A DNA stretch of 64,000 nucleotides from Janibacter sp. CX7 (GTDB taxonomy: Bacteria; Actinomycetota; Actinomycetes; Actinomycetales; Dermatophilaceae), in NCBI RefSeq assembly GCF_024362365.1, contig NZ_CP101464.1:1488001-1552000 (forward strand). The letters are read 5' to 3'. The translations under genes and the position numbers were made by a program. The notes under the pieces are model-generated. The model was given only the letters and a program-made list of their open reading frames with translations, searched no databases and had not been told where the DNA came from. Each line of letters starts with the position of its first letter. The first letter of the stretch is position 1. Shown one piece after another: positions 55,545 through 60,623 of the stretch.

Positions 55545-55901
55545 ATGGCCGAGTCAGCCCAGACCACCCACCGCGAGGCGACCCCCTTCGAGCGGGCGCT
55601 GCTCCAGCGACGACGACGAGCAGCCGAGCCACTGTGGCGCGATGCCCTGGGCGAGCAGCTCCGGCGACGACGCCACGAGCGTCGCGACACCCTCGACGAC
55701 ACGGCCACCCGAGCGGGGATCTCCCCCCAGTACCTCTCGGAGATCGAGCGCGGGCTCAAGGAGCCGTCGAGCGAGATGATCGCCGCGGTCGCCGGCGCGC
55801 TCGACGTCACCCTCCTCGACCTCACCCTCTCGGTGGCGGCGTCGCTGCAGGCGCCGGCCAGGGCGCGGGGGAGCGCGTCCACCCTGGCCCTGGCCGCCTG
55901 A
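55545..55901 (+). CDS. PopR/ClgR-like XRE regulator of clp genes
   Basis: A 118-residue XRE protein with the HTH TLDDTATRAGISPQYLSEIE and RGLKEPSSEMI that follows, the pattern of the actinobacterial ClgR/PopR regulators. The last residues are LALAA; in Streptomyces PopR the two C-terminal alanines mark it for ClpP-dependent degradation. It ends 3 nt from the convergent clpP pair, whose upstream region carries a PopR-box-like palindrome. It is therefore likely the activator of these clpP genes. Confidence 0.7.
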   Translation: MAESAQTTHREATPFERALLQRRRRAAEPLWRDALGEQLRRRRHERRDTLDDTATRAGISPQYLSEIERGLKEPSSEMIAAVAGALDVTLLDLTLSVAASLQAPARARGSASTLALAA

Positions 55902-55904
55902 CGC

Positions 55905-56492
55905 TCACCGCACGTCCATCACCTCGTCGACGATCCCGAAGTCCTTGGCGGCCGCGGCGGTGAGGACCCGAGTGCGGTCGGTGTCGCGCCGCAGCTGCTC
56001 CGGCGTGCGGCCGGTGGCTCGGGCGAGGATGCCCTCGATGTCGGACCGCACGCGCACCAGCTCGTCGGCCTCGAGGATGAGGTCGGGGATCGGGCCGCGC
56101 CCCTGGGTCGACGGCTGGTGCAGCACCACCCGGGCGTGGGAGAGCGCTGCGCGCTTGCCCGGCGCGCCCGCCGCGAGCAGGACTGCACCGACCGAGATCG
56201 CCTGTCCCACACAGGTGGTCGCGACGTCCGGGCGGATGTAGCGCATCGTGTCGTGGATCGCGAGCATGGCGCTGGGGTCGCCCCCTTCGCAGTTGACGTA
56301 GAGCTGGACGTCGCGGTCGGGGTCGACCGACTCGAGGTGGATCAGCTGCGCGATGAGCGCGTTGGCGACGCAGGCATCGATGGCGGTGCCGAGGTAGATG
56401 ATCCGCTCGGTGAGCAGGTGCGAGTAGACGTCCATGATCCGCTCGCCGCGCGGGTGCTGGGCGATGACGTTGGGGATCGGGTAGGTGCTCAT
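55905..56492 (-). CDS. clpP: ATP-dependent Clp protease proteolytic subunit (ClpP4-like)
   Basis: A 195-residue ClpP with an intact triad: Ser 100 in GQAISVGAVLLAAG, His 125 in VVLHQPS, Asp 172 in DTDRTRV. It is the second gene of the pair; the ATG overlaps the stop of the first by 4 nt. The motif ISVGAV differs from the usual ASMGAF, as in divergent ClpP paralogues. It forms mixed tetradecamers with a partner ClpP in related actinobacteria. Confidence 0.9.
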   Translation of the reverse strand: MSTYPIPNVIAQHPRGERIMDVYSHLLTERIIYLGTAIDACVANALIAQLIHLESVDPDRDVQLYVNCEGGDPSAMLAIHDTMRYIRPDVATTCVGQAISVGAVLLAAGAPGKRAALSHARVVLHQPSTQGRGPIPDLILEADELVRVRSDIEGILARATGRTPEQLRRDTDRTRVLTAAAAKDFGIVDEVMDVR

Positions 56493-57118
56493 CGGTTGCT
56501 CCCGACGAGTCCGCCGCGGAATCCCGTGGGCGCGCGGCCGCCCGGGACCACGTCGTCGAAGCTCGCGACGATCTCGTCCACGAAGCCGTAGTCGAGCGCC
56601 TCGGTCGCGCTGTACCAGCGGTCACGAAGGGAGTCCTCGAAGACCCGCTCGAGTGGTTGCCCGGTGTCGCCGGCGATCAGGCCGAGCACCGTGTCGCGGG
56701 TGTGCCGCAGGTCGTCGGCCTGCAGCTCCACGTCGACGGCCGTGCCGCCGATGCCGGCCGAGCCCTGGTGGAGCAGGATCCGTGAGTGCGGCAGAGCGCG
56801 TCGCTTGCCCGGGGTACCCGCCGAGAGCAGGAACTGGCCTGCGCTGCAGGCGATCCCGAGCGCCAGCGTGCTCACGTCGTTGGGCACCAGCCGCATGATG
56901 TCGCGGATCGCGAGCATCGCGGGGACGGAGCCGCCGGGGGAGTGGATCCACAGCGCGATGTCACTCGTCGGGTCGTCGGCGGCCAGCGACATCAGCTGGG
57001 TCATCAGCAGCGTGCCGTTGTCGTCGTCGAGGACGCCGTCGAGGACGAGGACTCGCTGTCGCTGCAGCTCTCGCCGGGTGCGGTCGTCGAAGGAGGTGGG
57101 TGTCGGTGTCTCGCTCAT
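56489..57118 (-). CDS. clpP: ATP-dependent Clp protease proteolytic subunit (ClpP3-like)
   Basis: A 209-residue ClpP with Ser 92 in IACSAGQFLLSAG, His 117 in RILLHQGS and Asp 166 in SLRDRWYS, so the triad is intact. The oligomerisation motif HSPGGSVPAML is present. It is first in the two-gene operon and 41 bp from the PopR-like palindrome. Absence of a clpX neighbour suggests these are the secondary pair (ClpP3/P4 type), not the housekeeping ClpP1/P2. ATG at 57118. Confidence 0.9.
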   Translation of the reverse strand: MSETPTPTSFDDRTRRELQRQRVLVLDGVLDDDNGTLLMTQLMSLAADDPTSDIALWIHSPGGSVPAMLAIRDIMRLVPNDVSTLALGIACSAGQFLLSAGTPGKRRALPHSRILLHQGSAGIGGTAVDVELQADDLRHTRDTVLGLIAGDTGQPLERVFEDSLRDRWYSATEALDYGFVDEIVASFDDVVPGGRAPTGFRGGLVGSNR

Positions 57119-57158
57119 GGGTCCACCGTCGCGCGGCGCAGCGCGCCCGGCGGCACGA

Positions 57159-57175
57159 ATCCGCCTGCGGCGGAT
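57159..57175. promoter_or_regulatory. PopR-box-like palindrome in the clpP/AAA divergent region
   Basis: The 17-bp palindrome ATCCGCC-TGC-GGCGGAT has the 6-3-6 layout TCCGCC-N3-GGCGGA. It matches the reported Streptomyces PopR site TCTGCC-N3-GGCAGA with one symmetrical change. It lies 41 bp before the clpP start and 34 bp before the AAA start, so it could serve both operons. Confidence 0.55.
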
Positions 57176-57208
57176 CCGCCCACAGCAGAGGGGTCTAGCC
57201 TGCGGAGG

Positions 57209-58609
57209 GTGAGCACCGCGACTGCCGCCCCCACCATCTCCACCGTCGGCGAGCTGCGCGCCGCCGGCCACGAGGCCAAGCCCCTGCGGATCGAGATCCG
57301 CGACAACCTCCTGGCCCGCCTGCGTGCCGGGGAAGACCCCTGGCCGGGGCTGCACGGCTACGAGGACACGGTCATCCCGCAGGTCGAGCGGGCCCTGCTC
57401 GCCGGGCACGACATCGTCCTGCTCGGCGAGCGCGGTCAGGGCAAGACCCGCCTGCTGCGCACCATCGCCGGCCTGCTCGACGAGTGGACGCCGGTCATCG
57501 AGGGCTCGGAACTGGCGGAGCACCCCTTCGAGCCGATCACGCATGCCTCCCGCCGGCGGGCCGAGGCCGAGGGTGACTCCCTTCGCATCAGCTGGATGCA
57601 CCGCGACGAGCGCTATGTCGAAAAGCTCGCCACCCCCGACACCTCCGTCGCCGACCTCATCGGCGACGTCGACCCGATGAAGGTCGCCGAGGGACGCTCG
57701 CTCGGCGACCCCGAGACGATCCATTTCGGGCTCATCCCGCGCAGCCACCGCGGCATCGTCGCGATCAACGAGCTGCCCGACCTCGCGGAGCGGATCCAGG
57801 TGGCGATGCTCAACGTCATGGAGGAGCGCGACATCCAGATCCGCGGCTACGTCCTGCGCCTGCCGCTGGACGTGCTCGTCCTCGCGAGCGCCAACCCCGA
57901 GGACTACACCAACCGCGGGCGGATCATCACGCCGCTCAAGGACCGCTTCGGCGCCGAGATCCGCACGCACTACCCGCAGGAGCTCGAGGCCGAGGTCGCC
58001 GTCACCCGGCAGGAGGCGCACCTCGTCGCCGAGGTCCCCGACCACCTGCTCGAGATCCTCGCCCGGTTCACCCGCAACCTACGGGCCTCCTCGTCCGTGG
58101 ACCAGCGCAGCGGCGTGAGCGCCCGCTTCACCATCGCCGGGGCCGAGACCGTCGCCGCGTCGGCCTTGCACCGCGCGGCACGTCAGGACGAAGGGGAGGC
58201 CGTCGCCCGCATTGTCGACCTCGAGGCCGCGGTCGAGGTCCTCGGCGGCAAGATCGAGTTCGAGAGTGGCGAGGAGGGCCGCGAGCAGGAGGTCCTCACG
58301 CACCTGCTGCGCACCGCCGTGGCCGACACCGTCCGTCACCTGCTGCGCGGCATCGACCTCGGCCCGCTCGTGGCCGCGATCGAGGACGGCGCGGAGGTCG
58401 CGACCGGCGAGCAGGTCACGGCGCGTGACGTCCTCGACGCACTGCCGGCGCTGGGGGAGGCGCAGGTCTACGAGGAGCTCTTCGACCGGCTCGGGGCCAC
58501 GAGCGACGGCGAGCGGGCCGCAGCCGCCGAGCTCGCGCTCGAGGGCCTCTACCTGGCGCGCAAGGTCGGCAAGGACTCTGCTGGGGGCGAGACCGTGTAT
58601 GGCCAGTAG
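57209..58609 (+). CDS. MoxR/Mg-chelatase-type AAA+ ATPase
   Basis: A 466-residue AAA+ protein with Walker A LLGERGQGKT (73-80) and a Walker-B-position motif IVAINEL (Asn 187-Glu 188 where most AAA have Asp-Glu), followed by MLNVMEERDIQIRGY and ASANPEDYTNRGRI, the insert typical of MoxR/ChlI chaperones. The C-terminal third is helical. It overlaps the vWA gene by 11 nt; such pairs act as ATPase plus von Willebrand adaptor. Start GTG 57209 has a close GGAG; target protein unknown. Confidence 0.8.
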   Translation: MSTATAAPTISTVGELRAAGHEAKPLRIEIRDNLLARLRAGEDPWPGLHGYEDTVIPQVERALLAGHDIVLLGERGQGKTRLLRTIAGLLDEWTPVIEGSELAEHPFEPITHASRRRAEAEGDSLRISWMHRDERYVEKLATPDTSVADLIGDVDPMKVAEGRSLGDPETIHFGLIPRSHRGIVAINELPDLAERIQVAMLNVMEERDIQIRGYVLRLPLDVLVLASANPEDYTNRGRIITPLKDRFGAEIRTHYPQELEAEVAVTRQEAHLVAEVPDHLLEILARFTRNLRASSSVDQRSGVSARFTIAGAETVAASALHRAARQDEGEAVARIVDLEAAVEVLGGKIEFESGEEGREQEVLTHLLRTAVADTVRHLLRGIDLGPLVAAIEDGAEVATGEQVTARDVLDALPALGEAQVYEELFDRLGATSDGERAAAAELALEGLYLARKVGKDSAGGETVYGQ

Positions 58610-60623
58610 CCGCAGTCGATTTCGTCGCTACGCCGGGGGTGACCCGCTCGCCCCGCCCGTCGACATCGCCGAGGCGCTCGACGACATCGGCGAGCGGGTC
58701 ATGGGCGGGTCCTCGCCCGAGCGGGCGCTGCAGGAGCTGCTGCGCCGGGGCACGTCCGACCAGATCGGGCTGGACGAGCTGTCCCGACGCATCCACGAGC
58801 AGCGGCGGGAGCTGCTGCAGCGGCACAACCTCGACGGCACCCTCCAGCAGGTGCGCGAGCTGCTCGACCGGGCCGTGCTCGAAGAGCGGGGGCAGCTGGC
58901 CCGGGACGTGCAGATGGACGACACCGACCGGGCCTTCGCCGAGATGAGGCTCGACGGGCTCCCTTCGTCCACGGCGGCGGCGGTGAGCGAGCTGCAGGAC
59001 TACTCCTGGCAGTCCTCGCAGGCGCGGACCGACTACGAGCAGATCAAGGACCTGCTCGGCCGCGAGGTGCTCGACCAGCGCTTCGCCGGCATGAAGCAGG
59101 CGCTGGAGGGGGCCACGGACGAGGACCGTGCTGCCGTCGGGGAGATGCTGCGCGATCTCAACTCCCTGCTCGAGAAGCACCAGCGCGGCGAGGACACGCC
59201 GCAGGACTTCGACGACTTCATGGCCGAGCACGGGGAATTCTTCCCCGAGGGACCCCAGGACATCGACGAGCTCGTCGACGCGCTGGCCCAGCGAGCCGCC
59301 GCAGCCCAGCGGATGCTGGCCTCGATGACGCCCGAGCAGCGCCAGGAGCTCATGGAGCTGTCCGCGCAGGCCTTCGGCTCGCCCGACCTGATGGAGGCGC
59401 TGGGGCGGCTCGACGGCAACCTGCAGGCCATGCGTCCGGGAGAGGACTGGAGCGGGTCGGAGCGCTTCGGCGGTGACCAGGGGCTGGGCCTGGGCGACGG
59501 GACCGGGATGCTCCAGGACATCGCGAGCCTCGATGCCCTGGCGGAGCAGGTGTCGCAGACCTACGGCGGAGCACGACTCGACGACATCGACCTCGACGCC
59601 CTCGCCCGGCTCCTCGGTGAGGACGCCGCTGTCGAGGCCCGCGCGCTCCGCGAGCTCGAGCAGGCCCTGCGTGGCAGCGGGGCGCTGCGCCGGGATTCCG
59701 AGGGACACCTGCGGCTGACGCCCAAGGCGATGCGGCAGCTGGGCAAGGCCCTGCTGCGTGACATTGCGCAACGCATGTCCGGCCGTCAGGGCCAGCGCGA
59801 CCTGCGACAGGCGGGCGCGGCGGGGGAGCGCTCGGGCGCGACCCGGCCCTGGGCCTTCGGCGACACCGAGCCGTGGGACATCCCGCGCACCGTGCTCAAC
59901 GGCGTGCTGCGCCGGGCGGGTGCCGGCGCCGACGGTGGTCGGCTCATCACGACCGAAGACATCGAGGTGGCCGAGACGGAGGCGCGCACCCAGGCCGCCG
60001 TCGCGCTGCTCGTCGACACCTCCTTCTCGATGGCGATGGACGGACGCTGGGTGCCGATGAAGCGGACCGCGCTGGCGCTGCACACCCTGATCCGCACCCG
60101 CTTCCGCGGTGACCACCTGCAGCTGATCGCCTTCGGTCGGCACGCGCGCGTCATGGAGATCGAGGAGCTCACCGCGCTCGACGCCTTCTGGGACAAGGGG
60201 ACCAACCTCCACCACGGCCTGCTCCTGGCACACCGGCACTTCCGCAAGCACCCCAACGCGCAGCCCGTGCTGCTCGTCGTGACCGATGGCGAGCCCACCG
60301 CCCATCTCGAGCCGCACGGGGAGACCTTCTTCGACTACCCGCCGCACCCCCTGACGATCGCGCGGACGGTGCGCGAGCTCGACGCGGTGAGCCGGCTCGG
60401 GGCGCAGACGACCTTCTTCCGGCTCGGCGAGGACCCGGGTCTTGCCCGCTTCATCGAGTCGCTCGCCCGGCGGGCGGACGGCCGGGTCGTGGCGCCCGAG
60501 CTCGACGACCTCGGCGCTGCGGTCGTCGGCTCCTATCTCGGCTCACGGCAGCCGGGCCGCGGAGACGAAGGGGGCGGCTACGGCGGCTGGTTCGGCGGCC
60601 GGGGCTTCTGGTTCGACCAGTGA
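58599..60623 (+). CDS. vWA-domain protein, partner of the MoxR-type ATPase
   Basis: A 674-residue protein: a long helical N-terminal region (1-430, Gln/Leu/Glu-rich), a linker, and a C-terminal vWA domain with the MIDAS motif DTSFSM (Asp 473) and VVTDGEPTAH. The end is Gly-rich (GGGYGGWFGGRG). It should bind metal and substrate and be remodelled by the AAA ATPase. ATG at 58599 overlaps the AAA gene, so co-translation is expected. Confidence 0.8.
   Translation: MASSRSRFRRYAGGDPLAPPVDIAEALDDIGERVMGGSSPERALQELLRRGTSDQIGLDELSRRIHEQRRELLQRHNLDGTLQQVRELLDRAVLEERGQLARDVQMDDTDRAFAEMRLDGLPSSTAAAVSELQDYSWQSSQARTDYEQIKDLLGREVLDQRFAGMKQALEGATDEDRAAVGEMLRDLNSLLEKHQRGEDTPQDFDDFMAEHGEFFPEGPQDIDELVDALAQRAAAAQRMLASMTPEQRQELMELSAQAFGSPDLMEALGRLDGNLQAMRPGEDWSGSERFGGDQGLGLGDGTGMLQDIASLDALAEQVSQTYGGARLDDIDLDALARLLGEDAAVEARALRELEQALRGSGALRRDSEGHLRLTPKAMRQLGKALLRDIAQRMSGRQGQRDLRQAGAAGERSGATRPWAFGDTEPWDIPRTVLNGVLRRAGAGADGGRLITTEDIEVAETEARTQAAVALLVDTSFSMAMDGRWVPMKRTALALHTLIRTRFRGDHLQLIAFGRHARVMEIEELTALDAFWDKGTNLHHGLLLAHRHFRKHPNAQPVLLVVTDGEPTAHLEPHGETFFDYPPHPLTIARTVRELDAVSRLGAQTTFFRLGEDPGLARFIESLARRADGRVVAPELDDLGAAVVGSYLGSRQPGRGDEGGGYGGWFGGRGFWFDQ

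Follow-up and report, generated by a model that had tools for sequence, protein, structure and literature searches.

The DNA analysed here (the window) is a stretch of 64,000 nucleotides, C1:1488001-1552000, of the 3.23-Mb single-contig genome of Janibacter sp. CX7. It carries a gene for a PopR-like regulator of the XRE type and, convergent with it, a pair of clpP genes, termed here clpPa and clpPb. The end of the regulator gene lies 3 bp from the end of clpPb, and the two clpP genes overlap by ATGA (Table 1). An initial annotation of this DNA had pointed to an XRE regulator ending in LALAA and to coupled ClpP genes; both are found, and Pfam recognises HTH_3 in the regulator and CLP_protease in the two ClpP proteins. 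An XRE regulator adjoining a two-gene clpP operon distinct from the housekeeping clpP1P2 is the mark of a PopR circuit, and here the housekeeping pair is a separate locus, C1:2127904-2129149.

Is such a locus unusual outside Streptomyces? A regulator-clpP arrangement of this kind is widespread among Actinomycetota. Named loci are the best 80 of 96 confirmed; they were found via the regulator and so all carry it, and 77 have the convergent clpP pair, the other three being without a pair in the DNA examined. ClpPb matches at 1e-62 are present in 75 of 246 genomes of the class, a count that may be too high or too low, as some housekeeping ClpPs match and Streptomyces-type ClpPb falls below the threshold. 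From this class sample, leaving out the match rows of G130, G280, G062, G120, G259, G071 and G083, 69 pairs were examined, 50 of them with popR in the flank. The 144 popR-linked pairs used below omit the window copies, loci already counted and pairs of unfitting spacing or strand; popR is within 450 bp of clpPb in 130 and farther away (>700 bp) in 14. Rows are not independent, e.g. J. limosus L039 and G009, or L064 and L134; G009 and J. limosus NBRC 16128 share an identical PopR.

Table 1. Positions of the genes and predicted signals of the popR-clpP locus and its divergent neighbours within the window
Feature	Position	Strand	Basis and remarks
popR-like XRE/HTH_3 regulator, 118 aa, C-terminus STLALAA	55545..55901	+	Open reading frame, PF01381
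clpPb (ClpP4-like, downstream subunit), 195 aa	55905..56492	-	PF00574, PDB alignments; Ser100 and His125 present; N-terminal loop retained
Codon ACT (Thr174) at the catalytic Asp position of ClpPb	55971..55973	-	PDB alignment, Escherichia coli numbering
clpPa (ClpP3-like, predicted catalytic subunit), 209 aa	56489..57118	-	PF00574, PDB search; Ser92, His117 and Asp166 intact
-10-like hexamer GACGGT of clpPa	57125..57130	-	Predicted by comparison with relatives, where its position is conserved; 29 nt away from box 1
PopR box 1, clpPa-proximal, perfect 6-3-6 palindrome TCCGCC-TGC-GGCGGA	57160..57174		Predicted operator
PopR box 2, clpPa-distal, TCCGCC-CAC-AGCAGA on +	57175..57189		Predicted operator; tandem to box 1, 15-bp step
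-10-like TAGCCT of moxR	57196..57201	+	Recurs upstream of Janibacter moxR
MoxR-like AAA ATPase gene, GTG start 57209	57209..58609	+	PF07728; divergent neighbour, not deemed a conserved member of the circuit
vWA-domain protein gene, ATG 58599	58599..60623	+	PF13519; overlaps the moxR end; neighbour only

Catalytic residues of the ClpP pair

Both subunits had been credited with intact triads. In alignments to PDB chains that are gap-free near the sites (E. coli numbering), this holds for ClpPa, with S92, H117 and D166; in ClpPb, S100 and H125 are in place and the catalytic Asp is replaced by Thr174. Of the pair only ClpPa is thus catalytically complete. Both housekeeping ClpPs of the same genome are intact.

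The asymmetry recurs among relatives. ClpPa has a full triad in all 142 complete cases (two of the 144 are incomplete), and ClpPb has one in 26 of 144. A residue of ClpPb has been lost by substitution in 117 of 143 pairs, where the frameshifted ClpPb of L010 is not scored as a substitution; the altered forms make up 76/77 among the named loci and 31/50 in the class sample. The serine is replaced by Ala, Gly, Glu, Trp or Asp, and the aspartate by Thr, Asn, His, Glu, Ser or Gln. The ClpP4-like triad is broken at Asp in the window and at His in the Streptomyces-type family f37, where His is changed to Gly in 12 of 12 loci. Two general statements were rejected on these grounds: that ClpPb is inactive everywhere, as S-H-D is kept in the 26 pairs, and that the Streptomyces ClpP4 is intact, as Gly stands in the His column. 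Among pairs that have no popR in the flank, the ClpPb triad is intact in 15 of 19.

How often did this happen? On a ClpPb tree of 98 rows, reduced from 170, a total of 8 gains or losses is needed to explain the four states, and broken versus intact requires at least 6 changes on well supported branches. The Janibacter ClpPb serine is nested in a clade that mostly lacks it; regain is favoured by the count of fewest changes, and repeated loss fits too. Loss of catalytic residues in actinobacterial ClpP4 was not found among the titles and abstract openings listed in searches of open-licence papers, a scope that leaves novelty unproven. Individual loci show further variants: ClpPb has Ala at the Ser site in the Janibacter locus L015, and likewise Ser to Ala in L119, on a plasmid of Embleya sp. 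NBC_00888, and in the Janibacter draft genome G002 (L010/L203) clpPb is frameshifted, with popR, clpPa and the boxes still there.

What might the altered subunit contribute? ClpPb has an E. coli-like N-terminus and, at positions that we take to belong to the ATPase-docking pocket, retains Tyr62 and Leu114 in 144 of 144 pairs. The window ClpPa has Trp62 and Arg112 and is without the E. coli-like N-terminus. These features make ClpPb, the presumably inactive subunit, a candidate docking ring. A single-sequence structure prediction of ClpPb (predicted local distance difference test, pLDDT, 36.9) was not used. Mixed Clp cores with an inactive subunit occur with the ClpR of cyanobacteria and plastids, and Listeria has a ClpP1 with a changed Asp. 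Common to these and the present pair is that one of two paralogous ring subunits lacks the full triad; the present case differs in that it would be a PopR-controlled back-up core of Actinomycetota, with several routes of loss. The predicted division of tasks would match that in Streptomyces ClpP1P2, in which cleavage falls to ClpP1 and recruitment of the ATPases to ClpP2 (PMC12607617).

Operator boxes and promoter geometry

The palindrome TCCGCC-TGC-GGCGGA, 41 bp from the clpPa ATG, lies where the initial annotation placed it, but it is not the single 6-3-6 operator envisaged there, as a second box abuts it head to tail. Together they form tandem 15-bp boxes (57160-57189), which on the clpP strand read TCTGCT-GTG-GGCGGA and then TCCGCC-GCA-GGCGGA. 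The Streptomyces lividans PopR site is given as TCTGCC-3N-GGCGAATCTGCC-3N-GGCAGA (PMC9775585, quoting Viala 2000), and the window has the same 15-bp step upstream of the first clpP gene. The 30-bp double box has one exact site in the 3.23-Mb genome; at up to three mismatches there is one further site (three mismatches), and a reversed control gives 8. The single box TCYGCYNNNRGCRGA occurs at 8 places versus 26 for its reversed control, and the single-box pattern with one mismatch is at chance (3 observed, 3.03 expected). The lone 15-bp palindrome was rejected as evidence, since it is too common.

Conservation of the operator beside orthologous clpP pairs had been put forward as a check, and the boxes are indeed kept beside most of them. 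A double-box score of at least 20 of 24 is reached in 120 of 143 popR-linked pairs (one of the 144 has too little upstream DNA) versus 0/2860 dinucleotide shuffles. By subset this is 73/77 for the named loci, 12/13 for close relatives, 3/3 for plasmids and, for the class sample alone, 32/50 versus 0/1000 shuffles. Pairs without popR in the fetched flank reach this score as well in 10 of 19 cases. The S. lividans motif itself, with two mismatches or fewer, matches 32 of 394 class genomes, the reversed control none; each of the 12 f37 loci that were read throughout has the motif before a clpP pair and a convergent popR ending in LAA.

A second conserved element lies downstream. This is a hexamer NANNNT, mostly CANNNT, at a distance of 28-30 nt from the proximal box. 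Of the short-leader loci, in which the boxes begin 70-72 nt from the ATG, 106 of 109 have it, as do 19 of 21 with long leaders; control windows of equal width give 14, 6, 7 and 4 of 109 and 10, 1, 1 and 0 of 21. The test set consisted of 130 loci scoring at least 20/24, ten of them without popR in the flank, and the hexamer had been spotted in operator alignments ahead of its test. The f37 loci, which were found by the literature motif, have it at 29 nt in 12 of 12. Near six other single boxes of the Janibacter genome, read on both strands (12 readings), NANNNT is near the right distance in one, at 27 nt. The spacing therefore goes with the promoter rather than with the start codon.

If the hexamer represents -12 to -7, the boxes would span -71 to -57 and -56 to -42, immediately before a -35 region that shows no clear consensus. 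The common short form would then be leaderless, with the predicted transcript start at the clpPa ATG. The window hexamer, GACGGT, is a weak -10 sequence. Such a geometry fits an activator. The presence of the hexamer at a fixed distance from the proximal box is new in this analysis.

Some operators depart from the common form. By eye, that of the Embleya plasmid locus L119 has three tandem boxes in 15-bp steps before clpPa. In L259 and L262 (G386:C382 and G332:C58; family f36), a double box with one and two mismatches to the S. lividans motif, a hexamer spacing of 28-29 nt and an ATG 41 nt downstream precede a gene not for ClpP but for a metallo-beta-lactamase (MBL)-fold hydrolase (PF00753 for the L259 protein; the L262 protein is similar in look). 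These hydrolase genes are a possible extension of the PopR regulon.

A probable back-up protease switch and competing explanations

The locus is likely a PopR-clpP back-up protease switch, with ClpPa as the cutting subunit and ClpPb mainly as a partner ring. The synteny, the tandem operator, the fixed operator-to-hexamer spacing, the conserved tail and the residue losses are present in the sequences, and the synteny, operator, tail and regulator tree support the type of circuit first proposed, PopR-clpP3clpP4 with its own operator and a C-terminal degron. The window regulator ends in STLALAA, a putative degron. The last two residues are AA in 134 of 144 popR-linked relatives (AA dipeptides in the preceding 40 residues amount to 2.0%), with ALAA in 66 and YALAA or FALAA in 40. 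The genome's own transfer-messenger RNA (tmRNA) tag is ANSKRTDFALAA, so the regulator tail resembles a built-in ssrA tag. In Streptomyces, PopR activates its clpP operon (PMC9765437, PMC12607617) and is degraded, in a ClpX-dependent manner, by ClpP1P2 (PMC9765437); by analogy, activation and degradation presumably hold in Janibacter.

How would the switch work? PopR would be made, but the housekeeping Clp protease would recognise the ssrA-like ALAA tail and remove the protein. With ClpP1P2 overloaded, inhibited or missing, PopR would accumulate, bind the two adjacent boxes just upstream of the clpPa -35 region and activate the weak clpPa promoter, with transcription predicted to start at the ATG. 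The two subunits would join in a mixed ClpP core, with ClpPa doing the cutting; ClpPb, without the catalytic Asp here and without Ser or His in many relatives, would be mainly the partner ring, most likely the side on which a Clp ATPase docks. The locus shares with S. lividans PopR-clpP3clpP4 the XRE regulator, the two-gene clpP operon and the tandem 15-bp boxes (PMC9775585, PMC9765437, PMC12607617), and with Streptomyces-type genomes the convergent synteny and the LAA tail; it differs from the S. lividans system in genus, in 4 of 24 fixed operator bases and in the divergent moxR neighbour found here.

Several points weigh against this interpretation. Only 8 of 16 Janibacter genomes carry some version of the module (seven have a close PopR, of at least 70% identity, and one a divergent version), so that its presence in the genus is patchy. 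Sampling was guided by similarity to the window proteins. The double-box consensus and the hexamer were fixed after the alignments had been viewed, so that the named loci do not test them independently; closer to an independent test are the literature-motif scan, the f37 hexamer reading and the class sample. In the class sample, 18 of 50 popR-linked pairs score below 20, several with one good box (the class loci with a single good box belong mostly to families f38 and f35), and 19 of 50 keep a full ClpPb triad. The S. lividans motif at two mismatches or fewer has no match in the window genome, the four differing fixed bases being all C/T or A/G changes. The docking argument is mixed: at positions 60, 90 and 112 the window ClpPb has Gln, Thr and Ala instead of the Tyr, Ile and Phe of E. 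coli, and ClpPa relatives have Tyr62 in 28/142 and Phe112 in 40/142. With Ser and His kept, the window ClpPb could have residual activity. Streptomyces cattleya ClpP1, 3, 4 and 5, each with ClpX in E. coli, are reported to have shortened the half-life of RelB2, host ClpP being present (PMC4989188), a mild counter-signal to an inactive ClpPb.

Could the regulator instead be a paralogue of ClgR that acts on the general ClgR regulon, with the palindromes there by coincidence? It does match the NCBIfam ClgR model NF041677, weakly, with 57.9 bits versus a cut-off of 170, itself a weak test, as the genome's own ClgR likewise falls below it at 120 bits; an AA ending is also found in most ClgRs examined. 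That own ClgR is nevertheless a separate gene (100 aa, ending in ...VVSAA), beside open reading frames that presumably correspond to cinA and pgsA. A regulator tree of 63 rows (41 of the 144 popR-linked, 6 Streptomyces-type and 16 labelled ClgR, one of them, L025, mislabelled) gathers 15 ClgRs in a 100/100 clade that leaves out the window protein; the grouping of the regulator, which the initial annotation had named as a check on its proposal, thus speaks for it. The window regulator groups with clpP-linked regulators opposite the ClgR side; backbone forks of the tree are weak, Streptomyces-type PopR is a separate branch on the side of the window regulator, and three clpP-linked f38 rows branch near ClgR. 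The double box, found once in the genome, is also unlike the ClgR motif GTTCGC-5N-GCG (PMC9775585). The locus has an XRE regulator, an AA tail and a ClpP target in common with the ClgR-clpP1clpP2 housekeeping circuit, but ClgR is a separate gene of another clade with a different box, and the paralogue explanation appears highly improbable. A better case, though still an unlikely one, can be made for PopR as governor of the divergent moxR-vWA operon, a true regulon member as suggested at first. Both operons share the 90-bp intergenic region, PopR-type operators precede other genes elsewhere, and where moxR abuts clpPa (G000, G006, G009, G010, G012 and J. limosus L039) the boxes are intact, with double-box scores of 23-24 of 24. 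However, moxR is present in 9 of 16 Janibacter genomes, and in the four where it is not beside clpPa (G001, G003, G008, G011) the best upstream score is 13-15, the level of shuffles; in G011, with about 0.7 kb between clpPa and moxR, recognisable boxes are at the clpPa side, and the draft G002 has kept the boxes with no moxR found. The boxes thus follow clpP, not moxR. Furthermore, moxR has its own -10-like hexamer 7 nt before the GTG (TAGCCT in 7 of 9, TAACCT or TAGCGT in the other two) irrespective of clpP as a neighbour. Relative to this predicted promoter the boxes span about -48 to -19, over the -35 and spacer, and bound PopR would be more likely to block moxR than to activate it. Of the 80 named loci, one has moxR beside the pair. 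The operon is probably not a member of the PopR regulon.

The remaining alternative concerns ClpPb, which might be a fully active second protease: Ser and His may be enough despite the Thr, or a different acidic residue may stand in for the Asp. Some ClpPs with a changed triad Asp, e.g. Listeria ClpP1, retain activity; Ser and His are retained here, the nested Janibacter serine could mean regain under selection, and the S. cattleya co-expression result points the same way. Set against this, losses recur at different positions of the triad and in one subunit only, ClpPa is invariant in all 142 complete cases, and one Janibacter, L015, has Ala in place of Ser. Full activity of ClpPb is unlikely, and the back-up switch with ClpPb mainly as partner ring is preferred.

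A broader proposal is advanced tentatively, with a little more doubt than belief: the back-up core of Actinomycetota may be mostly one-sided, the downstream ring having been silenced repeatedly (Ser to Ala, Gly, Glu or Trp; His to Gly in Streptomyces-type ClpP4; Asp to Thr, Asn or His) and kept for docking while the upstream ring alone cuts, and in Janibacter moxR may be repressed through the same operator. The kind of circuit is itself known. The main interest lies above all in the loss of catalysis by one subunit and then in the conserved promoter geometry; the circuit described in Streptomyces is a widely kept module of Actinomycetota with strict geometry, and the data suggest that its back-up Clp protease often has one dead ring. 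The ClpP1P2 and ClpP3P4 cores are reported not to be interchangeable, and ClpP3P4 to resist acyldepsipeptides (PMC12607617). A dead ring, if true, would bear on both properties and on task division in heteromeric Clp proteases.

Outlying loci

A few loci are of interest in their own right. The Janibacter genome G001 (L017/L208) has a divergent popR-clpP module on a long branch, away from the moxR site, with a PopR of 54% identity that has one in-frame TAG in the matched stretch and ClpPs of 55-59%; it was possibly acquired separately. In L257 and L258 (G248 and G149; family f53), a longer popR-like gene (225-238 aa) lies upstream in the same direction; the operator and clpPa are present, and clpPb was not found nearby. 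A weak ClgR-like sequence, TTCGC-N5-GCG, is at position 2813 of L216, the stretch around the own-genome housekeeping clpP pair. Modules of popR and clpP are also found on plasmids of Tsukamurella tyrosinosolvens (L120) and Prescottella equi (L121), and the module can therefore be plasmid-borne.

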